Assembly: GCA_947625935.1 (NCBI GenBank)
Contig: CANQQE010000009.1
Span: 45,982 to 109,981 of the forward strand
DNA length: 64,000 nucleotides
Origin: an uncultured Muribaculaceae bacterium
Lineage (GTDB): Bacteria; Bacteroidota; Bacteroidia; Bacteroidales; Muribaculaceae
Direction of reading: 5' to 3'
Part shown: piece after piece, positions 15,228 through 56,100 of the stretch
Position numbering within the stretch: the first letter of the stretch is position 1
Layout of the letters: the number at the start of each line of letters is the position of its first letter
The notes under the pieces: generated by a model
Told to the model about the DNA's origin: nothing
The model's input: the letters and a program-made list of their open reading frames with translations, nothing else
Databases searched by the model: none
Translations under genes and position numbers: made by a program

Positions 15228-18200
15228 TTAGAATGTAGCCACGAGACCGAGCGAGTAAGTGGTCGAGCGGGGGTAGACGTTGTTGTCGATACCGCCGAAC
15301 ACCTCGGGGTCGATACCGCTGTACTTGGTGATCACGAAGGGGTTCTGCACAGCCCCGAACAGGCGCAGGTTCAGCTTGCCGTCGATGAGCTTGTCCCAGG
15401 TGTAACCAAGAGTGATGTTGTCGCAGCGCAGGAACGACGCGTTCTCAAGGAAGTAGTCGCTCATGTAGAAGTCGTTGACAGCCTTCTTGTTGGTGAAATA
15501 GTAGTCGGTTTTCACAAGGTTGCTCAGACCGTAGGTGGCGATACCGTCGATCGCGCTGTTTGAGGCGAGCACGTTGTTGTAGACGTAGTTGCCGATCGAG
15601 GCGCGGAGCGAGATGCCGAGGTCCCAGTTCTTGTAACGGAAGTTGTTGCTCATGGTCATGGTCACCTTGGGATCCGGTGAGTGGCAGATCACCTTGTCGT
15701 CAGAGTTGATGACACCGTCGTTGTTCTGGTCAACGAACATACCCTCGATGGGCTTGCCGTTGTTGTCATAAACCTGCTGCAGCAGATAGAACGAGCTTGC
15801 TGCGTGGCCAACGGCGTGAGCCTGAACGGTGTTACCCGTAGCACCCGAGATACCGCCGGTGGTGATGATGGTCGACGCGTCGTTGAGCTTGGTGATTTCA
15901 TTATGGTTGTAACCCACATTGTAGCTTACGGTCCAGTTGAAGTCCTTGGTAACGACGGGGCGGGCGGTGATGTTGAACTCGACACCGTAGTTCTCAAGGT
16001 CGCCGATGTTGCGGTTGAGCATGTTCACGGTCGACGAACCGGCGGGGATGGTCACATAAGAGAGAAGGTCTTTGGTCTTGCGCAGATACCAGTCAAACGA
16101 TGCGTTGATGCGGTTGTTGAGGAATGCGAAGTCCAGGCCGGCGTTCCATGTGGTGGTGGTCTCCCACTTCAGGTCGGGGTTGTAGCCCTGGAGGAAGTAA
16201 CCCGGCATATACACTATTTTGCCGTCGGTATCGACCACGGGATAGTAGGAACCGGGGCCGGCTATTTCATACAAGGGGAGATAGTTGCAGGTCGAGCCGA
16301 TTTCCTGCTGGCCGGTCATACCCCAGCCGAGACGCAGCTTGAGGTCGTTCATCCAGCCGCGGGTGCCTTCCATGAAGCTCTCGTCGATGATGCGCCAGCC
16401 TAAGGCTACTGCGGGGAACGCACCCCAGCGGTTATCCTTCGAGAAGCGTGAGGTGGCGTCGCCGCGCATTGTGAATGTGAACAGGTAGCGATCCTTGAAC
16501 GTGTAGTTCAGACGGCCGTAGAACGACAGCAACTGCAGGTGGTTGCGGTAGTGGTAGTTGCCGTTGGCGTCAACAGGGTCATCTGCAAAATTAATGCCGA
16601 TTTTGTCGAGCGAGCCGGGGTTGATGTCCATGGTGTAGGCGTCGCCGCTCTCAAAGAGGAGGGCGTTGCCTGTGCCTGAGAACACCGGCTGCTCAAAGCC
16701 GGGAGTGGTGGGACGGCCGCCGTTGCCGCTGTCCTTGTTCTGACCGTAGTTGTGTCCGCTTGTGTAGGAACGCTGCCAGTCATAACCGGCGGTAACATCG
16801 ACATTTGACATGATCGACTCGAAATTCTTGCGGTAATTCAGATAGAAGCTCAACATGGTGTTGCTCTTGAACTGGTAGTAACGGTCGGTGAAGCCCGCGC
16901 CGTTCTTGTCATGCTCCCAGTAAGCGATCGGAGAGTTGGCGCACACTGAGTTGTGCTCGTCGGTGCGGCTCACGTCGTAACCCAAGTTGAGGTTGGCGTG
17001 CAGCTCGGGGAGGAAGTGGAAAGAGTAGTCCAACTGCAGGTTGCCGTTAGAGCGGTAAACCTTGGCGTAGTTGTCGCGGTCGTTGATGATCGACATAGGG
17101 TTCTTGCTCTGGTTCTGCTCCACGGTGACTTTGTTCTTATCATCGATGTTATACCAGGTGAAGTAACCGTTGTAGAGGTAGTTCATACCGCTGTTGCCGC
17201 CCGAGAGGGGGATGTTGGAATAGACAGGCTTGGTCGGGTCGAAACCGAGGGCCGAGCTGATCGCTTCGGTGCTGGTGAACTGGTTTTTCACATAGAAGCC
17301 TCTGACGTTGGCGTTAACGCTCAGGTGGTTGTCGAAGAACTTGGGCGACAGGCTGAATCCGCCGGTCACGCGGTCCATCTTGGTGCCTTTGAGGATACCG
17401 TTGGAGTTGGTGTATGACACATCGACGCGGTAGGGGAGGATGCCCGCTGTACCGGCGACGCTCAGGCTGTAGTCATGAGAAACGGTGGTGCGGAGCACTT
17501 CGTCCTGCCAGTCGGTATTGTGGATCACTCCGTTGAGACCAAGGCGGCCTGCCTCTTTGCTGTCGGGACCGAAATAGTTCTTAACCATGTCAGCGAACTC
17601 GTTGCCACTCAGCACATCCCACTTTTTGGCTGCGGTGTTGATGTGCATATTGGCCGCGAAACTGATTTTGGGACGGCCTGCGGTGCCTTTCTTGGTGGTG
17701 ATGATGATGACGCCGTTCGACGCGCGCGAACCGTAGATGGCTGTTGCCGAAGCGTCTTTAAGGATGGTCATCGACTCAACGTTGTCGGGGTTGACCATCG
17801 ACAGGGGGTTGCTCATACCCTGCACGCCGCTGTTATCCAAGGGCACACCGTCGATAACGATCAGAGGGTCGTTGGAGGCGTTCAGTGACGAACCGCCGCG
17901 GATGCGGATGTTGGCCGAGCCTTCGGGGCCGCCGGCGGTGGTTACGACAACGCCCGGGGTCTGGCCCACAAGCATATCCTGAACCGAAGTAGCCAAACCG
18001 GCCTCAACATCGTCAGGTTTGACAACCGCGATAGAACCGGTGGCATCCGATTTCTTCACGACACCGTAACCGATGGCCACGACTTCGTTAAGCACCACGC
18101 TGTTCTCCTTGAGAGTCACGTCGATGGTGGTGCGGTTGTTGACGGCGATTGTCTGCGTGTCAAAACCGACATAAGAGAACACAAGAGTTCCGTTGGCGGG

Positions 18201-18419
18201 GACTTCGATTCGGTAGTTGCCGTCGATGTCCGTGGCAACGCCGTTAGAGGAACCCTGCGCGAGCACGCTCGCTCCGATCAGGGGTTCCCCCTGAGGGTCG
18301 GTCACAACTCCGCTTACTGTGATGGACTGCGCCCATGCTCCGAGGGAGGCACATAGCAGCCCAACCAATAAAAATAGGAATTTTTTACTGATTCCTGTTG
18401 TCAATTGCTTCATTTGCAA
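15228..18419 (-). CDS. SusC/RagA-family TonB-linked outer-membrane transporter
   Basis: Outer-membrane TonB-dependent importer for oligosaccharides, partner of the SusD-like protein. Signal peptide residues ~1-31 ending 'GAWAQ'; then a carboxypeptidase-regulatory-like beta-sandwich ('VSGVVTDPQGEPLIGASV'), a plug with the SusC signature 'NEVVAIGYGVVKKSDATGSI' and 'PLIVIDGVPLDNS', and a 22-strand barrel to the C-terminal Phe ('SLGLVATF'). 1063 residues is normal. It heads the operon. No glycoside hydrolase, sulfatase or hybrid two-component sensor accompanies it here, so the substrate cannot be inferred; a DUF6377-like regulator domain is encoded 1.05 kb upstream. Confidence 0.97.
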   Translation of the reverse strand: MQMKQLTTGISKKFLFLLVGLLCASLGAWAQSITVSGVVTDPQGEPLIGASVLAQGSSNGVATDIDGNYRIEVPANGTLVFSYVGFDTQTIAVNNRTTIDVTLKENSVVLNEVVAIGYGVVKKSDATGSIAVVKPDDVEAGLATSVQDMLVGQTPGVVVTTAGGPEGSANIRIRGGSSLNASNDPLIVIDGVPLDNSGVQGMSNPLSMVNPDNVESMTILKDASATAIYGSRASNGVIIITTKKGTAGRPKISFAANMHINTAAKKWDVLSGNEFADMVKNYFGPDSKEAGRLGLNGVIHNTDWQDEVLRTTVSHDYSLSVAGTAGILPYRVDVSYTNSNGILKGTKMDRVTGGFSLSPKFFDNHLSVNANVRGFYVKNQFTSTEAISSALGFDPTKPVYSNIPLSGGNSGMNYLYNGYFTWYNIDDKNKVTVEQNQSKNPMSIINDRDNYAKVYRSNGNLQLDYSFHFLPELHANLNLGYDVSRTDEHNSVCANSPIAYWEHDKNGAGFTDRYYQFKSNTMLSFYLNYRKNFESIMSNVDVTAGYDWQRSYTSGHNYGQNKDSGNGGRPTTPGFEQPVFSGTGNALLFESGDAYTMDINPGSLDKIGINFADDPVDANGNYHYRNHLQLLSFYGRLNYTFKDRYLFTFTMRGDATSRFSKDNRWGAFPAVALGWRIIDESFMEGTRGWMNDLKLRLGWGMTGQQEIGSTCNYLPLYEIAGPGSYYPVVDTDGKIVYMPGYFLQGYNPDLKWETTTTWNAGLDFAFLNNRINASFDWYLRKTKDLLSYVTIPAGSSTVNMLNRNIGDLENYGVEFNITARPVVTKDFNWTVSYNVGYNHNEITKLNDASTIITTGGISGATGNTVQAHAVGHAASSFYLLQQVYDNNGKPIEGMFVDQNNDGVINSDDKVICHSPDPKVTMTMSNNFRYKNWDLGISLRASIGNYVYNNVLASNSAIDGIATYGLSNLVKTDYYFTNKKAVNDFYMSDYFLENASFLRCDNITLGYTWDKLIDGKLNLRLFGAVQNPFVITKYSGIDPEVFGGIDNNVYPRSTTYSLGLVATF

Positions 18420-18838
18420 AAAATGGTTAGATTAATAATTATTTAAGAGTGTTATGGTATAATCTTGAAAACCTGAAGATTAACTCCGAGATTCAACCGC
18501 CGCCGAAGCCGCGGGTTATTTTATCACTATGAGTCGCGAATAAACAGTTCCATGATATGTGATTTGGTTATTATCCAATGAGTTACAAATTGCTATTTTG
18601 ACTTACCGGCCTCACGTTGCCGCCAAATGTTAAAATTGGGCAAACGCCAAGTGCGGTTTCACAAAATTATTTAAAATAACCCTCTGACTCCCGCAGGTTA
18701 AACCCCGATGAAAATCAGCATTAACCTATCTCTCTGTAAATTAGAGTGTCAGCCCTCTGCGAGGTGGCCCACAAATGAAATCGGCATTAAAAGACACTCT
18801 TTTTATGTGACCGGCTCCTGCCTCGCCTAAACGAAAAA

Positions 18839-18868
18839 ACATCGCGGTGCCTCGCGGCGGCGCGATGT
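18839..18868 (-). terminator. Intrinsic terminator without an associated gene (minus strand)
   Basis: ACATCGCG (18839-18846) pairs with CGCGATGT (18861-18868), with an inner GCC/GGC pair around TCGC. On the minus strand the stem is followed by a T run (complement of 18834-18838). No minus-strand ORF worth calling lies upstream, so a small RNA is possible. Confidence 0.65.
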
Positions 18869-19033
18869 CCTTGAATCGTTATTTTGGTAACAATTCTTGC
18901 ATGAATTAATGTAAAACTTACGCCAAAAGTAGCCTTAAAACCGTCAACGGCGCGGCATGTTAGACCGCTGTGAGCATCCCGCGAAGCTAAACTGCGAAAG
19001 AACAACAGATTAACACGATGAAAAATGAAACCT

Positions 19034-19064
19034 TGATGAATTTGGCGGGAATTTATTATATTTG
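19034..19064 (+). promoter_or_regulatory. Consensus promoter with no obvious full gene
   Basis: TTG (19034-19036), 20 nt, TATATTTG (19057-19064), an exact TAnnTTTG. Transcription would begin near 19070 and reach the DUF6377-like gene at 19471 after ~400 nt without a convincing ORF. It may be the promoter of the lost 5' part of that gene. Confidence 0.6.
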
Positions 19065-19470
19065 TGGCAGTTTTTTTGAAATGCGTCATATACGAGCATT
19101 ATCACTGGACTTTTTGACATCCGAAAAATCGCCAATTTTTTATTGAATGGTCAAAGAAGTAAAGTCATGATGTTTGCGCCCATAGCGTGGACTTTGCTTT
19201 CTTTTTATCTGACCGTTCAGGTGTTTGGCGATGCCTTCAGATGTCGATGAAATGATAGATGGTTCACGCTTGTTATGTTAAAAAACGCAGACCTCAGAAT
19301 CACCGGGTATGGACGCTTTGACGACAGCGACATCTGAGAAATCGCCAATTTCCACTCAACATGACCGACGGTCGGCTTAGCCGGGGTCTTGTCCATATCC
19401 AACATTAACCGACAAACCCCATGACGGTCGCTCTGCAGACCTCGCGCCGCCGTTAAAACATAACGTTGCT

Positions 19471-19950
19471 ATGCACAACGGCAATGAATCATCGCTCGAA
19501 GCCGCGCGCCTCGCGCTCGCCGAGCTACTTTCTTTCGCCGCCGGGCGCGTGTCCGACAAAGACAGCTACCGCAAGCGGCTTCTGAAACTATCGGCGCAGG
19601 GACGCCGCGAAGACCTCCACACCGCTCTGTCACACTCCTCCGTGGAGCAAGACATGGAGGAACTGTTCATCTTTTTCGACAGAGCCTTTTTGGAACTGTT
19701 CCCCGACTTCGTAACAGAGTGCCGCAGGCTTTCGCCCGCGGCCCCAAACACAGTGACGCCCCAAAGAGGAAGGCTCACATCAGAGCAACGCATCATGGCC
19801 CTGATGAGCCTCGGAATGCTTGACCCGCGCCAGATCGCCTCCACCCTGAACCTCTCCGTGGGCACAGTCTACAACTACCGCTCCCGACTCAAAGCCACCA
19901 TTCCCCCCGACACCCCCCTCCACGAAGCCATCTCCTCCCTGCTTCCCTAA
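19471..19950 (+). CDS. DUF6377-like C-terminal regulator domain, probably truncated
   Basis: 159 residues that resemble only the C-terminal part of DUF6377 proteins, which are normally membrane-bound TPR regulators. Markers are 'FFDRAFLELFPDFVTECRRL' (residues ~70-90) and a closing helix-turn-helix 'IMALMSLGMLDPRQIASTLNLSVGTVYNYRSRLK' pattern, with the Tyr-Asn-Tyr-Arg recognition helix typical of the family. The TPR repeats and the membrane helix are absent. The frame stays open back to a TAG at 19378-19380 but shows no further homology. So it is either a 5'-truncated remnant or a soluble stand-alone version. Its position upstream of the Sus-like operon makes a former regulatory link plausible (inference). 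Confidence 0.6.
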   Translation: MHNGNESSLEAARLALAELLSFAAGRVSDKDSYRKRLLKLSAQGRREDLHTALSHSSVEQDMEELFIFFDRAFLELFPDFVTECRRLSPAAPNTVTPQRGRLTSEQRIMALMSLGMLDPRQIASTLNLSVGTVYNYRSRLKATIPPDTPLHEAISSLLP

Positions 19951-31247: not shown

Positions 31248-31685
31248 ATGGAAAAACTGATAAAAATAAAGTCGATTGACGACATCGCCACAGCCGCCCG
31301 CGAATTTGCCGCGCTGATGGGCGACGAGACTGTCTATGCTTTCTACGGCGACATGGGAGCCGGCAAAACAACGTTTATCAACGCCCTGTGCCGCGAGCTC
31401 GGAGTGGAAGAAGACCCGACTTCGTCGCCATCGTTCGCGATTGTCAACGAGTACCGTTCAGACACCACGGCAGAGCTGATCTATCACTTTGACCTCTACC
31501 GCCTTGATGATATCGAGGAAGCTCTCGACCTCGGCATCGAGGATTATTTCGATTCAGGAGCGTTGTGCCTGCTCGAATGGCCGGAACGCATCGAGCCGTT
31601 GCTGCCCGACGATGTAGTTAGAGTGAAAATCAGCGTTGATGCCGACGATGATTCCCGCTCGCTTCTTGTGGAAAAAGCCGACTGA
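31248..31685 (+). CDS. tsaE: tRNA threonylcarbamoyladenosine biosynthesis ATPase TsaE
   Basis: ATPase partner of TsaB/TsaD in making t6A37 of ANN-decoding tRNAs. Walker A '[15 protein letters not shown]' at about residue 34, switch-like '[14 protein letters not shown]' and 'LYHFDLYRL' followed by 'LEWPERI' are all diagnostic. 145 residues is normal. Its stop codon overlaps the birA start by one base. Confidence 0.96.
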
Positions 31686-32431
31686 TGGCGCCCCGTCCCC
31701 CTATATACATCCCACTTGCCGAGACGCAATCGACCAACACAGCCCTGCGTGAAGCGTTGACGGCCGACCCCGCATTGCCGGCGGGGACGGTGGTCTACAC
31801 CCATCGGCAGACGGCGGGACGCGGCCAACGCGGCAACTCGTGGGAAGCCGAGCCGGGGATGAATGTCACTATGTCGATGTTGCTGCGCCCCGACGATGTC
31901 AATGCCCGCGAGCAATTCACGATCTCGGAGCGTGTGGCTCTCGGAGTGGCGCGCTCGCTGGGTCGCCATCTGCCCCCATCAATGCCTGTTGAGGTGAAAT
32001 GGCCCAATGATGTTTATGTAGGCGACAAAAAAATTTGCGGAATATTGATTGAGAACTCCCTGAGCGGCAACCGCATAGACTACTCGATAGCCGGAATCGG
32101 CATAAACGTCAATCAGACCATGTTCCGTTCGCCCGCACCCAATCCCGTCTCGCTGGCCCAACTGACGGGCCTGACATTCGATGTCGAGGGGGTGATGCGG
32201 GAAGTCGCTGACGAGATAACGGCTCTGTCGGCATGGGATAAAGATGAACTTCACAAACTCTACCACTCGTCGCTGTGGAGACGCGACGGGCTACACCCCT
32301 ACTCCACCCCCGACGGCACCCGTTTTATAGCCGCCATCAAGTCAGTCGCACCCGACGGTTACCTGACACTCCTCACCGACACCGGCCTCATACGCCGCTT
32401 CGCCTTCAAAGAAGTCGCCGCTATCCTCTAA
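31685..32431 (+). CDS. birA: Biotin--[acetyl-CoA-carboxylase] ligase
   Basis: Attaches biotin to the carboxyl-carrier protein through biotinyl-AMP. The family motif is 'RQTAGRGQRGNSWEAEPGMN' (residues ~42-61), then 'VKWPNDVYVGDKKICGILIE' and 'IGINVNQ'. 248 residues, with no N-terminal helix-turn-helix, so a class I enzyme without DNA-binding repressor function. Begins on the last base of the tsaE stop codon and ends the operon; downstream DNA turns AT-rich. Confidence 0.96.
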   Translation: MAPRPPIYIPLAETQSTNTALREALTADPALPAGTVVYTHRQTAGRGQRGNSWEAEPGMNVTMSMLLRPDDVNAREQFTISERVALGVARSLGRHLPPSMPVEVKWPNDVYVGDKKICGILIENSLSGNRIDYSIAGIGINVNQTMFRSPAPNPVSLAQLTGLTFDVEGVMREVADEITALSAWDKDELHKLYHSSLWRRDGLHPYSTPDGTRFIAAIKSVAPDGYLTLLTDTGLIRRFAFKEVAAIL

Positions 32432-32588
32432 GCCGACGGCAAACTAAAATTCACGATTAATATTATTAAAATCATTAATTCCAACCGCTGCCTCATGAAC
32501 ATAAGTTAAATATACACAAAAAGATTGCAATTTTAGCTTTAATTGCATATATTGTGCCCATTATTAACATTTAGCCTTATTGCGTACC

Positions 32589-35018
32589 ATGAAACTCCGA
32601 TTCTTATTAATTTTCTTGTCATTTATTTCATTTATTAACGTAATCGCATCAAATATCGAAAAAACAACTTACTTCGAAAACAATTTGACACTTGGCGGTG
32701 ATGTTAAAATTCTTAGCTCCAAGAAATTTGTCATTGGTGAAAAATCATATACCCAGTTTGATGTTGACGCTCCTAACAGCGGGAAATATTTCATTAATTT
32801 TTGGATGTTGCCATCTAAATCACAAGACGGGTCTTTTTGCTCTTATCAGGTTGAAGTTAACAGCGTACCACAATCTACGAAAATCACACCATTCAAGTCG
32901 GATTGGCAAAGTATTACTTTAGATTCCAATTCGACAGTTTTTTTAAACTCTGGCATTAACACTATTACTATTGTTGGAACGGTACCAGAAGTCCCGGCTG
33001 TTGAACACATCCGGTTGTCCAAGACAATAGAAAATAGTTTAATCAATAGCGACATTTATGATTCTTATAAATCGTTTGTAGATGTTGAATCTCAAAAAGA
33101 AAACACCATAAAAACAGCTGGAACTGGCGGTAAGGATCCGTGGACAGACCCGATTGAAGGAACTGCATCATACAAAATGTTTGGATATACAAGCTTGATA
33201 AATGAAACAATTCGATATACATTCCATAACACAGTCGCCTATAACTCAGGCGACTCAATCTTAGTAGAATCAACAGGAATTGATGGCTTTGCACACGTCG
33301 TTAATGTATTTAAAGTGGATGACCCAGAAAAATATTCTTGGGTAAGCAATGCAAGTAGAGGCAATGGCTCTATAAGACAATTGATTCAAGAAGGTGGTTT
33401 ATATCAGATTGTATTACAGTCTTATAGGAGTGGAGACGTTGGTAAATGTGATGTCAGAATTAATAATAATAGATATGAATCAACGTTGGTTTCTGGAACC
33501 AGAATCGTATATGCTCTACCGACAGGAATAGAATGTAACTCATTTACCTCAAACAGCTCAGTAGATCCAATTTTGTGGGTAGGAGAGCTTTCAAAAGGTA
33601 AGGTTATGGCCTATAATGATGATTACGTTGGAGATGGAGTATTTGATTGGGGATATAACTCCCGAATAAGAAAAACATTCTCCAAACCCGCACGTTCCGC
33701 AACTGTCGCAGTTAATTCCTCATATAATCCAATTGGTGTTTGTGATATTTACATAGGATGCCTGAAAGGCAACGTCGATAAACACGCATTCCCAACATTC
33801 AGAGAAGACGATGCAATACAATCAGCTTTGCCTACCGGCAATAAGGATATTGACGTATCTTATAATTGCATAGGATGGGCTGGAGGTTTATCCAGTTGGG
33901 AAGAACCGCCTTATATGGGGACTTCCGAAAAAGACGACTTAGACTGGTATGACAACTATTTCGGCAATGAAAGATATCCAGGCTCTCCAATATATACCAG
34001 AGATGGAGCCAATGCAGAAAATGGTATAGTAGCTTTGTGGGCGACAATGACAACTAACGGCTCTATATCAATAGGATGTTATCAACATGCTTCTGTGAAA
34101 AAAGGTGGTGACGAACGTCCACATGGATATGATTGGGAAAGCAAATTAGGTAGTGGGCCACGAATCTTCCATCCAAGATATGCCTTGACAGGTGCAAATT
34201 CAGGAGAACATGGATATGGTAAAATTGTCAGATATTATCGTTTAGCTGATAATAATGCGAATATTAACACGCTTGAGGAAGCTATAGCTGACGGATCGGC
34301 CGTAATTGAAAATCTGAGACTGAACGAGGCGGAGTCGCAGTTCATTGATAATAAGGTCTCAATGATAAAATCGTCTCAATTAGAGGAATTTGAATCACTC
34401 TATAATGCATGGAGCAACATTTGGAACAATAGTATTTATAGTTTGTCATCCAAAATTGCTGATTGCAGGGAATATCGAGATTTGTTATCATATTGTCATG
34501 ATAATAATTTGATATATTTGGCTTTTAAGGCATTTGCTAAAGGGGATTTATGTGCGATGCGGCTTGTTTTTGACATATCTAACCCAAATAAAGAAGCCTC
34601 CTTTAAATCTATACAGGCATACAATGACTCGCATAAATATGATGCTAATGGAGCAATGATTATTAGGTCAACCCCAACCGTGGTTATGGCGTATATTAAA
34701 CAAATCATACAACTTGAAATCGACAATAATACGAGACGTAATGTTCCATTCTCAGACGCAACTTACAGTAATTCAGATGGTGTTAATGTTACTTCATCTT
34801 ATAGAGTCATAAATACTGAAATAGATATTGATTCTCCGTCAATAATATCCATTGAGATTCTTAACAAGAATGGAGATATTAGATATTGCTGTCAAAATAA
34901 TGATAAATTTGACACAGGTCGCCATAACTTCAAGACGGAAATAAATACTCCCGGAATTTATTTTGTCAAGGTTTTAATAAATGGACGTTGGAATGTAAAA
35001 AAAGTAATTATTAAATAA
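32589..35018 (+). CDS. AT-rich secreted protein with an Asn-Cys-x-x-Trp-Ala (DUF7689-like) domain and a type IX-like C-terminus
   Basis: 809 residues from ATG 32589 (a TTG 9 nt upstream is less likely); signal peptide 'FLLIFLSFISFINVIAS'. Residues ~25-160 look like a carbohydrate-binding-type beta-sandwich. Residues ~425-550 carry 'YNCIGWAGG' (Cys427), 'IVALWATM', 'CYQHASVKKG' (His500), 'YDWESKLGSGPRIFH' and 'GYGKIVRYYR'. This order (N-C-x-x-W-A, x-x-H-A, W-x-S-K-L-G, H, Y-G-x-V) is as I recall DUF7689, where Cys and His would form a cysteine-hydrolase-like site; catalysis is an inference. The end 'TPGIYFVKVLINGRWNVKKVIIK'-type strand resembles a type A sorting domain. A 60-nt sample at 33361 counts 35% GC, far below the neighbours, indicating recent acquisition. 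Confidence 0.78.
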   Translation: MKLRFLLIFLSFISFINVIASNIEKTTYFENNLTLGGDVKILSSKKFVIGEKSYTQFDVDAPNSGKYFINFWMLPSKSQDGSFCSYQVEVNSVPQSTKITPFKSDWQSITLDSNSTVFLNSGINTITIVGTVPEVPAVEHIRLSKTIENSLINSDIYDSYKSFVDVESQKENTIKTAGTGGKDPWTDPIEGTASYKMFGYTSLINETIRYTFHNTVAYNSGDSILVESTGIDGFAHVVNVFKVDDPEKYSWVSNASRGNGSIRQLIQEGGLYQIVLQSYRSGDVGKCDVRINNNRYESTLVSGTRIVYALPTGIECNSFTSNSSVDPILWVGELSKGKVMAYNDDYVGDGVFDWGYNSRIRKTFSKPARSATVAVNSSYNPIGVCDIYIGCLKGNVDKHAFPTFREDDAIQSALPTGNKDIDVSYNCIGWAGGLSSWEEPPYMGTSEKDDLDWYDNYFGNERYPGSPIYTRDGANAENGIVALWATMTTNGSISIGCYQHASVKKGGDERPHGYDWESKLGSGPRIFHPRYALTGANSGEHGYGKIVRYYRLADNNANINTLEEAIADGSAVIENLRLNEAESQFIDNKVSMIKSSQLEEFESLYNAWSNIWNNSIYSLSSKIADCREYRDLLSYCHDNNLIYLAFKAFAKGDLCAMRLVFDISNPNKEASFKSIQAYNDSHKYDANGAMIIRSTPTVVMAYIKQIIQLEIDNNTRRNVPFSDATYSNSDGVNVTSSYRVINTEIDIDSPSIISIEILNKNGDIRYCCQNNDKFDTGRHNFKTEINTPGIYFVKVLINGRWNVKKVIIK

Positions 35019-44745: not shown

Positions 44746-45159
44746 TTATTGGGGCTGCTGCTTTTTAAGCAAATCGCGGATTTCGGTCAGCAGCTCCTCC
44801 TCTTTTGTTGGAGCGGGTGGAGCGACGGGGGCTTCCTCCTCTTTTTTCTTAAATTTCATCATCACCCTGAGAGCCACGAAGATACTGAAAGCGATAATTA
44901 GAAAATCAATGATATTCTGTATGAACACGCCATAGGTGACAGCCACCTCGGCGGCTTCTTCGGTGGCCGGGGTGATGACATGTTTCATATCTTTGAAATT
45001 CAATCCGCCCGTGCAGACGCTCATAACCGGCATGATGACATCGTTGACCAACGATGACACAATCTTACCGAACGCTCCACCGATGATGACACCGACCGCC
45101 ATGTCGATAACATTGCCCTTCATCGCAAACTCTTTGAAATCAGAGAGGAATTTACCCAT
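44746..45159 (-). CDS. mscL: Large-conductance mechanosensitive channel
   Basis: Homopentameric membrane channel that opens under extreme tension to release solutes. From the ATG at 45159: 'LSDFKEFAMKGNVIDMAVGVIIGGAFGKIVSSLVNDVIMP' is the amphipathic N-helix plus TM1 pore helix; TM2 is 'GVFIQNIIDFLIIAFSIFVALRVM', then a charged cytoplasmic helix with Pro-Ala linker and 'ELLTEIRDLLKK'. 137 residues matches E. coli (136). The longer open frame to 45324 has no support. Confidence 0.96.
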   Translation of the reverse strand: MGKFLSDFKEFAMKGNVIDMAVGVIIGGAFGKIVSSLVNDVIMPVMSVCTGGLNFKDMKHVITPATEEAAEVAVTYGVFIQNIIDFLIIAFSIFVALRVMMKFKKKEEEAPVAPPAPTKEEELLTEIRDLLKKQQPQ

Positions 45160-45365
45160 ATCAAAAATAAGTTTCGTTAATATTATGATTCTCAAATAAC
45201 AGCCGGGCGACAAAAATGATTGCCGCACAAATGCCGCATTTGGCAAAAATAGTAAAATTTCCCCATAAACCACCCATGCGGCATAGTTTTTTAAACCAAA
45301 CAGGCGCATCAGAACCGTTGACATTATTTAACACAACCGACTCCAACTCCCACGCAATCAATCCT

Positions 45366-45373
45366 TAACTTTG
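45366..45373 (+). promoter_or_regulatory. Possible -7 box of the glycosyltransferase gene
   Basis: TAACTTTG, 35 nt before the start codon; no TTG at the right distance upstream. The rest of the 249-nt gap between mscL and this gene shows nothing else. Confidence 0.4.
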
Positions 45374-45408
45374 CAAAAACATCTAAAAACTACCACGCTT
45401 TCCCTTCT

Positions 45409-46446
45409 ATGGTATCAGTTATCATTCCCATCTACAATGTGGAACGTTATTTGAAGCAGTGTCTCAGGTCTGTGCTCAACCAGACGTATAAGGATATGGA
45501 AATCATACTTGTCAACGATGCGTCGCCAGACGGGTCGTTGACAATCTGCAAACAGTTTGCAGAGCGCGATTCCCGCATCACGATTATCGACAAGAAGGTC
45601 AACGAGGGGGTGGATATGGCACGGTTTTCGGGGCTTGACGCCGCCAAAGGGGAGTATATCTATTTTATCGACCCCGACGACTGGCTCGCCCGGCGCGACA
45701 TCATCGAGCTGATGGTCAACAAAGCCGATGAAACCGGCGTCGACTACGTCTTGATGAACTACCAGAAGGTCATCGGCCGCCACGCCCTGATAAAAACCAA
45801 TGGCATGATGCATAAATCCGGAATAATGGGAAACAATGAGTTGGTTGATGAGCATTATTTAGGATGCTTTGGCTGGCCTACACTTAGTCCTAATATGTGG
45901 GATAAACTATTCAGGAAATCATTCCTCATTTCAACAGGGATTAAGCCCACCGGCCTCAACTATAGCCAAGACACGTCATTTAATCTACTATTACTTCCTA
46001 AAACCAATAGCATATACGGACTTGACATATGCGGTTACAATTACCGCTACGGAGGACGAACAAGCGGGAACAATCCAAAATGGCTTAAAGCACAAAAAGA
46101 CTTATATCAGTTACGGATTTCTGAATCTAAAAAAAACAATTATCCCCAAGGAGCACCGCATGCCAAATTGCAATTACTCGCAGTCATGGAAGCGGTGACT
46201 GAAATGACAGCGGCATTCAATCCCGGCGAAGCCACGGACTATCTAATCAAGGAGCTGGGGGATCCGTTTTGGGACGAGGTGCTGCAGCCGGAAAAGTATC
46301 CCGATATGTTCCAGACCCCGTTCATGCAGGCGCTGTCGGCGCGCGACGTCGACCGGATGATAGAGCTGTCGCTGCCGGCGGCAAAGCGGCACAGGAGGAT
46401 GGCGCGTATCAAAAAAATCGCTAACGCCATACTCTCACGGATTTAA
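45409..46446 (+). CDS. Family 2 glycosyltransferase, compositionally mosaic
   Basis: Inverting GT-A sugar transferase, likely for surface polysaccharide or protein glycosylation. 'VSVIIPIYNVERYLKQCLRSVLNQTY' (start), 'EIILVNDASPDGS' and 'GEYIYFIDPDDW' (metal-binding D-x-D) are diagnostic; acceptor-side residues after ~130 vary. 345 residues. The gene has three parts: GC-rich 5' third, AT-rich middle (~45790-46190) and very GC-rich 3' end. Hand counts of 60-nt lines give 58% (45601), 33% (45961), 28% (46081) and 68% (46321). It stands alone, with no other glycan-synthesis genes nearby. Confidence 0.9.
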   Translation: MVSVIIPIYNVERYLKQCLRSVLNQTYKDMEIILVNDASPDGSLTICKQFAERDSRITIIDKKVNEGVDMARFSGLDAAKGEYIYFIDPDDWLARRDIIELMVNKADETGVDYVLMNYQKVIGRHALIKTNGMMHKSGIMGNNELVDEHYLGCFGWPTLSPNMWDKLFRKSFLISTGIKPTGLNYSQDTSFNLLLLPKTNSIYGLDICGYNYRYGGRTSGNNPKWLKAQKDLYQLRISESKKNNYPQGAPHAKLQLLAVMEAVTEMTAAFNPGEATDYLIKELGDPFWDEVLQPEKYPDMFQTPFMQALSARDVDRMIELSLPAAKRHRRMARIKKIANAILSRI

Positions 46447-52085: not shown

Positions 52086-52520
52086 CTAACGGGTCAAGCG
52101 TAGCAACGCCTCCACGGCAAGGCGGTAGCTGTCGAGGCCGAAACCGGCAATCACGCCGCGGCAAGCCGGCGCTATCATCGAGCGGTGGCGCACCTCTTCA
52201 CGCGAGTGCACGTTTGAGATATGCACCTCGACCACAGGCGTTTTTATGGCCGCTATCGCATCGTGCAGAGCGAGCGAGGTGTGGGTGTAGGCCCCGGCGT
52301 TGAGGGCCACCCCGGCTGTGTCGGGGTCGGCACCCGCCTGATGCAGGCGGTCAATCAGGTCACCCTCATGATTGCTTTGGAAATAGTCAATCTCATGAGA
52401 ATCAAACTCCCTGCGCAGGGCGTCGAGAGCGACGTCCATCGACTGCGACCCATATATGCCCGGCTCGCGGAGTCCAAGCAGATTCAGATTTGGCCCGTTG
52501 ATAATCAGTATTTTAGCCAT
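52086..52520 (-). CDS. aroQ: 3-dehydroquinate dehydratase, type II
   Basis: Third step of the shikimate pathway. From ATG 52520: 'KILIINGPNLNLLGLREPGIYG' with the catalytic Tyr, 'FQSNHEGDLIDRLHQA', 'GVALNAGAYTHTSLALHDAI' and 'VEVHISNVHSREEVRHRS'. 144 residues is exactly the family size; the open frame back to 52736 is GC-rich non-coding DNA. A consensus-like promoter lies 50 nt upstream. Confidence 0.96.
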   Translation of the reverse strand: MAKILIINGPNLNLLGLREPGIYGSQSMDVALDALRREFDSHEIDYFQSNHEGDLIDRLHQAGADPDTAGVALNAGAYTHTSLALHDAIAAIKTPVVEVHISNVHSREEVRHRSMIAPACRGVIAGFGLDSYRLAVEALLRLTR

Positions 52521-52570
52521 ATACAAAAGAATAAGTGAAAGGCCGGCGTAACACACGCGAACCATGACCA

Positions 52571-52601
52571 CAAAATTACAAAAAACCATCCAACCCCACA
52601 A
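52571..52601 (-). promoter_or_regulatory. Promoter of aroQ
   Basis: Minus strand TTG (52599-52601), 20 nt, TAATTTTG (52571-52578), about 50 nt before the aroQ ATG. Confidence 0.6.
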
Positions 52602-53148
52602 TAGCCCCGCAAAGGCGGGAACCTCGGAGCGGTGAATCAGCCCCGTCCAACCACCGCCTGCGGGGGGGATCCCGACAGGGAATCGCGGGGAATCATCTTC
52701 AAAAACAAGCCTCACAAGGGCTAATTTGCATCCCACTACAGTTAAATTAAACTAAATATGCGAAAAACAAACAGGGAGAATGGTTGAGGAATCGCGACAA
52801 AATGATAATTTTGTAATTGGAAAAAGCAAAACCTTATTTCTCTAAGTATCACGTTATTCTTGGAAAAGGAAAAGACACGCTTTCACGTCATCTCTCCCGC
52901 CCGGTTCACGTTAAAGAAAATACTTGTAGGAATGTGGTTGACAGCTAATTTAAACATTTAATAATCTACTTTCAGAAAAACGGTCTACTTTATAGGGTGG
53001 TTACTTTGCATGATGAACTGTTTTTGCGGAGAGAACAGCTTTATAAGGCAAGCCATAAATAATCCACATTATGATGTACAGCTAAAAACAGTATAAAAGC
53101 AAATATAGTTCAATAATCTACTTAAATAATCTACTTACACAAACCAAG
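52602..53148 (+). other. Non-coding region and long leader upstream of the 2303-residue protein gene
   Basis: No gene seen. 52602-52740 is GC-rich with small inverted repeats. The promoter at 52784-52813 would give a leader of ~330 nt. The 12-mer AATAATCTACTT occurs exactly three times (52960-52971, 53112-53123, 53125-53136), the last two one base apart, with a partial TCTACTT near 52984. Confidence 0.6.
52784..52813 (+). promoter_or_regulatory. Promoter of the 2303-residue protein gene
   Basis: TTG (52784-52786), 19 nt, TAATTTTG (52806-52813). No equally good promoter lies nearer the start codon. Confidence 0.6.
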
Positions 53149-56100
53149 ATGAAAAAAATTTTATTTCTTCTTCTGACGGCTGTGTGCGCCATGTTATACG
53201 CACCACCGATCAATGCCGCCGACTACACATTCTATGTGGACAAAGGCGACACAGGATGGACAACCGTCCAATGTTATTATTGGGATAATTCGCCTGCATC
53301 GTTCGCTGCAAGCCCGGAATGCACGCCTGTCCCAGGGCACAACACCATCTACAAGATAGAACTCACAAACGATAGTCTAAAGGGTATTATCTTCCACAAA
53401 GGAGAGCCAGGGGACAACAACCAATCCCAAAATATCGATGGTAATAATTTAAAGGACGGTTATTTGTACACTCTGAAAAAAGTGGAAGGCCAATTCGCTA
53501 CTTGGACTATATCGGATTCGAAATACACCCCCCCGGTAGTGAAAAACTACACGTTCTATTTTGACAACAGCGCAGTCAGCGTGTCAGATGTTCCTTTTAA
53601 CGGCTGGAATCCGCCAAAGGTTTACTACAAAGGGACCCACAGCAACATGACGCTGAAAGATGGCAACATCTACACTTACTCTATCAGCGCGGCATCAGCC
53701 CCTAAAGTCCAGTTCACCGACGGCGGTTTTAACTCATTGGGGGATAACGGACACTGCACCGTGGAGGTTACAATAACCGACGGTTATGTATATAAAATCA
53801 ACGGAAAAAATGACAGTTGGGTTTATACCGTCGACGGTGAGGAGTACAATCCTGTCAAGGTTCAGTCGGTTGAGCTGTTGAAGGACGGCACGTCTGTGGG
53901 TGGTGCTGTCTCATCGGCTCCCTACAGCTTCTCTCTCTCAGACCTGACCGGCGACGAGAAGTTCCTCGTCAGGGTCAACTACGACAACTCTACCTCGAAG
54001 ACCTACACCGTGTCGAGCGGCACAAACCTCACCGAGACATCCTCGACCACAGGATTCTCAATCGGTAAGAAATACAGCGCAGCAACCCTGACGGTGACCC
54101 TCTCCGGCCTCGAAGCCACAAGCTACGCGCTCTCCAACACCACCGAGCGTCCAATCGAGCTCACCAGCTACACAATCTATCTCGACAAGACCAATATCAC
54201 ATCGGATGGATTAAGCACTACCAATCAGGTATATTTCCACACCTGGGATGGAGCAAACTACGACCCGGCTTGCAGTTGGGATAACCCCATTCCCTGTGAA
54301 AAAGTCAACGATGACTCTAATCTATGGAAAGTTACTTTCGCTTGTACCGGGACACCAAAAGGGTTCTTCCTGTCGAGCAAAAAAAATGAAAACTACACCG
54401 ACCGAACCGTAGATATCACCCCGACCGACGGCTATGTCTACACCGCCAACGGCGAGAGAGACCAGTATAGATGGAAGGTTGATGGAAAAGTATATGACCC
54501 CACCACAGTCACCAAGGTCACCCTGTGGAAGGACGGGAGCGTGTATGCCGAGGACTCGGAGGCACCGTTCCGATTCGACCTCAAAAAGCTGACCGGAACC
54601 GGCGTCTACCGCATCGTGGTCGACTACTCCAACGGCACGTCGAAGTCCTACATCCGCGAGCTCCCCAACGACCCGAAAGAATGGTTGGCACCGAGCACCG
54701 ACTACACCCTCATCGAGGCTAACGAGACACTCCGTTTCCGTCTGAACTCGACCGACTCGGAGCATATCATCTCAAACGCCAGGATGACCATCAACTTCTC
54801 AGGCGTCAACGCCGTGAGCTACACCCTCTCCGAAGTGACCTTGCTCTCCCACACAGCCGACATGTGGCTCTACGACGGAACCAAAGAATGGCCGATGGAG
54901 CACCGCCGCGACGGCAAATACGTCCTGGCCGACTTCACACCCGACGCAGCCAAGACCTACACCGTGCTGCTCTCTCTCGACGGCACAACCAAGACCTCCT
55001 ACACCGTCAGCGACACCACCACGCCTCTTGTAGGCGGTATCCGCGACGCGGTTGAGGGCACAACCGGCTTCTCGATTGATCCCACCCTCACCGATGTCAA
55101 TGTCTCAGTGCGCCTCGTCAAGGGCGTGCCCACCAAGATATCGCTCGGCGACCACAACGGTTTCTACACGATATATCTCAAGCAGCGTTTCACCGACTGG
55201 GCTCCCTACGCCCGTCTGTCCAACACCGACAACGACGGCTTCTGGTGGACGGTAATGACCCCTGTCAATGGCGTCCGCGGCGTCTACTCGGTAACGTTCG
55301 ACCCCACCCTCTACAACCGCGTGCGCTTCCTGCGTCAGGATCACTTCGACGGCAACACCAACCACCAGACAGTGAGAACCGAGGAAGTAATCAACGGCCA
55401 CATCTACACTATCAACGACGAGATTGACCCCGCCGAGGGCCGCGGACTCGACCACGAGCTGTTCGTGATGCCGGTCACTCTGGCGTCTGTGTCACTTGTG
55501 AGCGCCGACGGCACCGAGACAATACCCCTGTCGTTAGACGACTCCGGCAACTGGAAAGCCACACTCCCCGCCACCATGACAGGCTCATACCTGATCAAGG
55601 TGACAGGCACCGACCCCACCGGAGCCGAACAGTCAACGATGTACACCATCACCGACTCTGAGCTCTCCGCCACCACATCCAACGGCACCGCCGACGAAGT
55701 TGTCGCAGGCGAAATCCCGTTCACTCTTAACTTCGGCTCTGCTAACAACGCAATCCTGTCGTTGGTGATGAACGCCGACGGATCAGCCCCCGTACAGGCA
55801 TACCTCACCGACCCCAACAGCGTGATCTCGGCACTCTACCTGATCTGCCGCAACGAGGACGAGGGTCTCGACATGACTAACCCCGACGCTCGCTTCACCA
55901 CCTCAGACGGAGGCCACACATGGGTATGGAGAGGCAAAATCAAGCGCGGCAACGATTACAAGTACTACGTCCGCGGCATCGCTCCCGAAGGCGCGGCCCA
56001 CATTCACTCCATCGGAAAGGATGTCAACTACTGGATACAGAGCATCAAAGACGGCAAGCAGGCCGTCTATGGCATCAGCGACGGCCAGGACGGCCCAAAT

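Follow-up and report, generated by a model that had tools for sequence, protein, structure and literature searches.

The gene under study is a single open reading frame on the plus strand of the window (the whole stretch of 64,000 nucleotides that was analysed), running from an ATG to a stop codon (Table 1), and an alternative TTG start at position 32580 lies likewise in the open frame. The motifs of its product stand where the initial annotation had placed them (NCIGWA with Cys427, ALWA, QHAS with His500, WESKLG, FH and YGKIVRYYR). The GC content of the gene is 36.5% against 53.9% for the window, with 59.2% in birA upstream, 57.8% in an S24 gene and 51.1% in the propeller gene just downstream, and its third-position GC is 30.2% versus 69.5% in birA. 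Other AT-rich dips of the window are found at 18001-19500, 45001-46200 and 52501-54000. The pattern TTTG-N17-23-TAnnTTTG, which we take to be a Bacteroidota-type promoter, has eight matches in the window versus 0.69 expected by shuffling; none of the eight lies just 5' of the DUF7689 gene, and sigma-70-like sites occur at chance level (14 versus 11.6 expected). The propeller protein is found at two further places in the same genome and has a weak PorZ-like match; any partnership with the DUF7689 protein would be hypothetical.

Table 1. Genes at the locus and parts of the DUF7689 protein, in window positions
Feature	Position	Strand	Residues	Basis or remark
birA	31685-32431			Upstream of the DUF7689 gene
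Exported DUF7689 protein, coding sequence, 809 aa	32589..35018	+		Open frame from ATG; relatives match most of the length
Sec-type signal peptide	32589..32663	+	1-25	Model helix 2-18; hydrophobic run in the sequence
CBM35/CBM6-like beta-sandwich	32694..33026	+	36-146	
Beta modules, probably two, of which one or both are of PPC (pre-peptidase C-terminal)/collagen-binding type	33138..33827	+	184-413	
DUF7689 domain with Cys427, His500, Ser518, Lys519 and His528	33852..34241	+	422-551	PF24738, conservation, model topology
Alpha-helical domain	34272..34739	+	562-717	Model; plasmid match spans residues 402-608
T9SS (type IX secretion) C-terminal sorting domain	34767..35015	+	727-809	
Propeller-type secreted protein, 375 aa	35036..36163	+		Starts 18 bases past the end of the DUF7689 stop

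The DUF7689 domain, which the initial annotation had proposed from its motif order, was recovered by Pfam (PF24738, E 1.2e-14, 55.5 bits versus a cut-off of 22.6) and scored 60.1 bits in a search of the genome, and the C10 peptidase family PF01640 was absent from the Pfam matches of the protein at E values up to 1. An N-terminal beta-sandwich and export with a type IX-like sorting tail had also been proposed, and both hold: the sandwich is seen in the AlphaFold model, in which the strand order gives about three beta modules ahead of DUF7689, and the tail scored 25.4 bits against a cut-off of 23 in a whole-genome frame search, where it was one of the 21 over the cut-off among the 30 tails listed (in scans of the protein it stayed below threshold, with 17.8 bits versus 27 in Pfam and 18.9 versus 23 for TIGR04183). 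Whole-model fold matches were to CBM35, to collagen-binding/PPC modules and to a gingipain sorting domain. Cleavage of the signal would be expected near residue 21. In plasmid lipoproteins, too, DUF7689 is followed by sequence that matches the start of the alpha-helical domain. Two PorU sortase matches were obtained in the host genome (918.5 and 615.5 bits). By these features, i.e., a sorting domain, an N-terminal hydrophobic helix and PorU matches in the same genome, the DUF7689 protein is a type A cargo of the T9SS. The host genome carries two different PorU-type sortases near each other (L068, L069; G000:C4:91756-99870).

When genome contigs were scanned with the window protein alone no relative was found, and a three-sequence alignment used as the query retrieved 20 loci in named genomes, distributed across the Bacteroidales, in Chitinophagaceae and in one myxobacterium. 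Of these 20, the 16-row alignment A2 omits L031-L033 (no difference from L030), L039 (divided between two frames) and L049 (the domain alone); its members share 22-32% overall identity with the window protein, and DUF7689 was matched in all 16. In genome samples that include the host itself, DUF7689 was detected in 12 of 395 genomes at the level of the phylum, 4 of 395 at that of the class and 9 of 298 at that of the family (7 of these over the cut-off). A profile of the long form was matched in 7 of 393 genomes of the order, again with the host included; the architecture is sparse yet spread over gut and oral Bacteroidales. One of the seven long-form genomes (L056, 1495-3072, reverse strand) encodes the N-terminal half and the T9SS tail and lacks DUF7689; the same N-terminal modules occur there without the domain, so the front half is shuffled independently. 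A similar N-terminal match adjoins S8 peptidases in L074.

The initial annotation had described the family as usually small and cytosolic, and this is true in part: several members of about 150 aa lack a signal, and exported forms were found repeatedly. By eye, six of the 16 A2 rows have a lipoprotein-type N-terminus and no sorting tail (L034, L038, L042, L044, L046 and L048), and eight have a tail-like C-terminal domain (L035 and L036 are cut before the tail), of which type the Pfam model matched five among the 16 rows. In a tree of 15 rows (A2 without L047), five of the six lipoproteins formed one clade (100/100) and the Chitinophagaceae lipoprotein L034 grouped with tailed proteins; since the lipoproteins thus occupy two places, the tree is consistent with two changes of anchor in the family. 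The Pyxidicoccus copy (L045:6001-8706) is of the long form, including a sorting-type tail, and is placed among Bacteroidota sequences, although one account (PMC5445135) describes the T9SS as restricted to Bacteroidetes. In three loci (L029:6768-9174, L036:5902-8358 and L053) the frame is interrupted before the sorting tail, which lies in a separate piece, and in L012 (reverse strand, from 1097), from another class of the phylum, a signal peptide is followed directly by DUF7689 and then by a repetitive stretch resembling a beta-helix.

Conservation of the two residues singled out by the initial annotation was confirmed at each level of sampling. In A2, Cys427 is present in all 15 rows that reach the column and His500 in 16/16; the A2 loci were found via two peptide patterns, one containing YNC and one HGYDWE, and therefore this conservation is partly built in. 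The loci added in the wider sets came from profile searches (except L029, found by tblastn). In the 33-domain set (A2, the Parabacteroides copy and 16 domains found with the Pfam profile), Y425-N426-C427, S518, K519, G521, H528 and Y543 do not vary among the 32 rows in which these columns are occupied; H500 is found in 32/33 and is missing from L017, where the frame is broken ahead of the His. Excluded from this count were L001/L015 (the window itself, kept as the window row), L022 (the same protein as L035) and, as partial or frame-disturbed, L006, L007, L008, L009, L010, L013, L014, L018 and L019. Six further domain-bearing relatives from a profile search, one of which (L053) reads like L036 of A2, all kept Cys427, His500, Ser518, Lys519 and His528, and Gly521 and Tyr543 each differed in two of the six. 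A catalytic-type Cys and His are thus conserved throughout, the exceptions being the broken L017 and the small-form copies L006-L008, from one genus of another class, which have YNW in place of YNC and a disturbed frame and are probably decaying. Because overall identity to the window protein is only 22-32%, Cys427, His500, Ser518, Lys519 and His528 stand out, and the conservation across the wider sets makes Ser518 the most likely candidate for the third catalytic position, with Lys519 or His528 as alternatives.

The proposal of a papain/NlpC-like fold fared less evenly: the order in which the structural elements are predicted speaks for it, as does a single CHAP match below threshold, and the NlpC/P60 profile comparison was not significant. 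In the AlphaFold model Cys427 begins a helix (427-431), His500 lies in the strand 493-503 and Ser518 in the strand 516-519 (pLDDT near Cys427 and His500 averages 68-69 per ten residues), so that the modelled Cys-helix and subsequent His-strand would follow the order of papain and CHAP. The fold matches of the whole model hardly touch residues 393-726, so that the lack of a papain-like chain from their list carries no weight for the DUF7689 domain, which the list barely covers; a sequence search of the PDB with the window protein and with the domain profile gave no match. The member L011 matches CHAP over the corresponding region, with an E value of 0.0038 that falls short of the cut-off, and Gly-Asp precedes the His strand in three of the 33 domains (L011, L024 and L028), a feature given as typical of NlpC/P60, CHAP and amidases in PMC10318531, where both Cys-His-Ser and Cys-His-His triads are listed for papain-like families. 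When profiles were compared by hhalign with 28 NlpC/P60 domains, the outcome was not significant: P was 0.15 for all DUF7689 sequences together (0.75 for the reversed control), 0.012 for the subset L011, L012, L023-L028 (reversed control 0.41) and 0.022 for the small forms (reversed control 0.047). The resemblance to CHAP/NlpC-P60 amidases therefore comprises the Cys-helix/His-strand order, the Gly-Asp of three domains and the CHAP match of L011, whereas the third position is His in NlpC/P60 and Ser/Lys in DUF7689, and the fold of DUF7689 is a predicted one. Membership of DUF7689 in the papain-like superfamily is likely rather than established.

DUF7689 genes are found on elements that move. 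Prevotella sp. oral taxon 376, Hallella colorans, Segatella buccae and an Alloprevotella carry the gene with the same sequence throughout 2,397 bases (0 differences in all six pairs), and a base-identical copy in four genera therefore indicates recent movement among human-associated bacteria. The stretch shared by Prevotella sp. oral taxon 376 with each of Segatella buccae and the Alloprevotella is about 12.4 kb at 99.5%, that shared with Hallella 6.6 kb at 99.97%, and as read the shared Prevotellaceae stretch encodes a tyrosine integrase and a NikA-type mobilisation protein. After its DUF7689 gene this four-genus element (L030:705-14369) has genes for a radical SAM/SPASM protein, a Gfo/Idh oxidoreductase and an S-adenosylmethionine synthetase. 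Residues 402-608 of the window protein have matches of 26.6% identity in eleven plasmid records of Bacteroides/Phocaeicola, each of 44-57 kb; on the conjugative plasmid of B. xylanisolvens (NZ_CP041231.1, L072:5863-10084), the one record in which the neighbours were read, a 332-aa lipoprotein-type protein (DUF7689, 8.8e-27) is followed by a 440-aa protein and then by a MACPF pore-former. On a 6.3-kb plasmid of Phocaeicola salanitronis (L073:72-1058) a DUF7689 lipoprotein of similar kind is encoded, and the MACPF gene is absent.

For the window gene itself, recent import had been suspected from its composition. No protein match was found in any of the three congeners searched (one of them 68% complete), and one congener keeps the run of four upstream genes (a 1036-aa protein, a PglZ-type regulator, tsaE and birA), after which the order breaks; the 9 kb read in this congener contained no match to the DUF7689 protein or to the four genes that follow the DUF7689 gene in the window. 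The low GC, the lack of a match in the three congeners and the break in order after birA together support a recent import of the gene.

An all-against-all comparison of flanking ORFs yielded, besides the DUF7689 gene, none common to more than three of the 18 loci, and the neighbours submitted to Pfam scans were few and chosen by eye. Among these, peptidase-type proteins were identified at three loci (a C10 peptidase and an I69 inhibitor domain in L034, a C25 peptidase with propeptide in L044, and a C69 peptidase directly upstream in L042), along with an I69-domain protein (L046), DUF6055 proteins (L038) and BspA-type LRR proteins (L037, L040 and L044). As a background, 12 such genomes with about 38 Mb together contain 28 C10 genes, so that about 0.1 would be expected within the approximately 0.14 Mb around the loci, and one was seen. 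Small lipoprotein genes lie downstream of the DUF7689 gene in L034, L041, L043, L044 and L048, with related copies in L041 and L043, and the Parabacteroides copy is flanked on both sides by surface-polysaccharide genes. The window's own DUF7689 gene has the propeller as its neighbour, not a peptidase. The I69-domain protein of L046 (L046:7941-9251) has a C10-like length, and by eye an Asn seems to replace the catalytic Cys (GTGNVAASQ), so that it is possibly a dead peptidase; its similarity to the C10 peptidase of L034 is confined to a brief segment of the I69 region, and no PDB relative was found.

The locus is best read as encoding a papain-like cysteine hydrolase, probably a peptidase, that is mobile and displayed on the surface. 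We give a chance slightly above even to the specific proposal that a Bacteroidales bacterium acquired this hydrolase horizontally and keeps it on the cell surface or releases it; the gene, its domain, the sorting tail, the PorU sortases of the genome and the residue conservation are observed, and the papain/CHAP-like fold, the catalysis and the substrate are what we infer. The Sec signal peptide would direct the protein to the periplasm, where the type IX system would recognise the sorting domain and PorU would remove it, leaving the protein attached to the surface or released. Outside the cell the CBM35-like and PPC/collagen-binding-like modules may hold a glycosylated or proteinaceous substrate, which DUF7689 would cut with Cys427, at the helix start, as the nucleophile, His500 on the following strand as the base, and Ser518 (or Lys519/His528) in the third position. 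The bond cut would most likely be a peptide or amide bond in an extracellular protein or glycoprotein, with peptidoglycan as the second choice; the peptidase reading is preferred because of the PPC domain, present in 6 of the 16 A2 members, and the C10, C25, C69 and I69 neighbours.

Compared with PF24738 in general, the window protein shows a significant match and the common signature YNC...H...SK...H, but several members of the family have about 150 aa and no signal, whereas the window protein has 809 aa and is exported, with binding modules and a sorting tail. A close parallel is offered by the Bacteroides C10 peptidases (Bfp1-4, SpeB-like) and their Bfi inhibitors, for which small inhibitor genes beside the protease, lipoprotein anchors and mobile elements are reported in the available part of one study (PMC2873492). 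DUF7689 loci resemble this system in having a putative exported cysteine enzyme, often a lipoprotein, carried on mobile elements and adjoined by small inhibitor-like genes, but the window protein lacks a Pfam C10 match and the small neighbours are putative inhibitors; the parallel is an analogy and no proof. Gingipains (C25) and other T9SS-exported peptidases have the same type of C-terminal sorting domain, but the catalytic domain of gingipains is unrelated to DUF7689 by sequence, and the clostridial collagenase ColG has a collagen-binding/PPC-type module, whereas no collagenase domain was among the Pfam matches of the window protein.

Part of the same evidence could be read differently. The MACPF gene second downstream on the one Bacteroides conjugative plasmid read, the small lipoprotein genes, the CHAP match of L011 and the mobility of DUF7689 genes would also suit an antibacterial effector, in which DUF7689 would be a CHAP/NlpC-like peptidoglycan amidase or endopeptidase directed at competitors, the adjoining small lipoproteins would be immunity proteins, and the plasmid MACPF pore could admit the enzyme through the prey outer membrane. 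We consider this unlikely: T9SS-exported proteins and surface lipoproteins face outwards, and both forms of DUF7689 would by themselves not reach the prey periplasm; the PPC and CBM35 modules and the C10/C25/C69 company suit extracellular substrates; and the window protein has no match in PHROGs or PADLOC. A phage or defence origin, with which the initial annotation had associated the family, was considered and rejected, as neither the protein nor the domain was matched in PHROGs, PADLOC or phage records, and a single peptide pattern run over viral contigs likewise gave no match. Between a peptidase of extracellular substrates and a role in phages or defence, the former is the more likely. As for the toxin that the initial annotation also offered as a reading, it would be a conceivable role, but the neighbours read point rather to secreted peptidases.

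It is quite unlikely, in our view, that the protein is a peptidase inhibitor, adhesin or other binding protein with a papain-like fold and no catalysis, as might be suggested by the binding-type modules in front of DUF7689 and by co-location with the BspA-type LRR surface proteins (L037, L040, L044) and I69 inhibitor domains (L034, L046); the Cys, His, Ser-Lys and His are conserved at 22-32% identity, and such retention would be unexpected for a binding domain. Very improbable is an LRAT/amidase-like enzyme that would use its cysteine to transfer acyl or glycosyl groups, or for processing, on surface polymers of the producer itself: acetyltransferases and transglutaminases do belong among the papain-like families (PMC10318531, in the part available), and the Parabacteroides copy does lie between surface-polysaccharide genes, but among the loci with neighbours examined this setting occurs only at that locus, and the neighbours at L034, L042 and L044 are of peptidase type.

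Beyond the hydrolase proposed for the window, a wider claim about the family is advanced tentatively, as the less probable of the two. DUF7689 may comprise secreted cysteine peptidases of papain-like type, so far unrecognised as a family, whose site would be Cys-His-Ser(Lys). In Bacteroidota they would be deployed as T9SS cargo or surface lipoprotein and traded between genera on conjugative and integrative elements, accompanied by other peptidases, by small lipoproteins resembling inhibitors or by a pore-former, i.e., a mobile surface-proteolysis module parallel to C10/Bfi. No paper under the names DUF7689 or PF24738 was found in the library searched. DUF7689 gains from this analysis a testable active site and an extracellular location, and, if it is a peptidase, the mobile peptidases known from bacterial surfaces in gut and mouth would be enlarged by one family.
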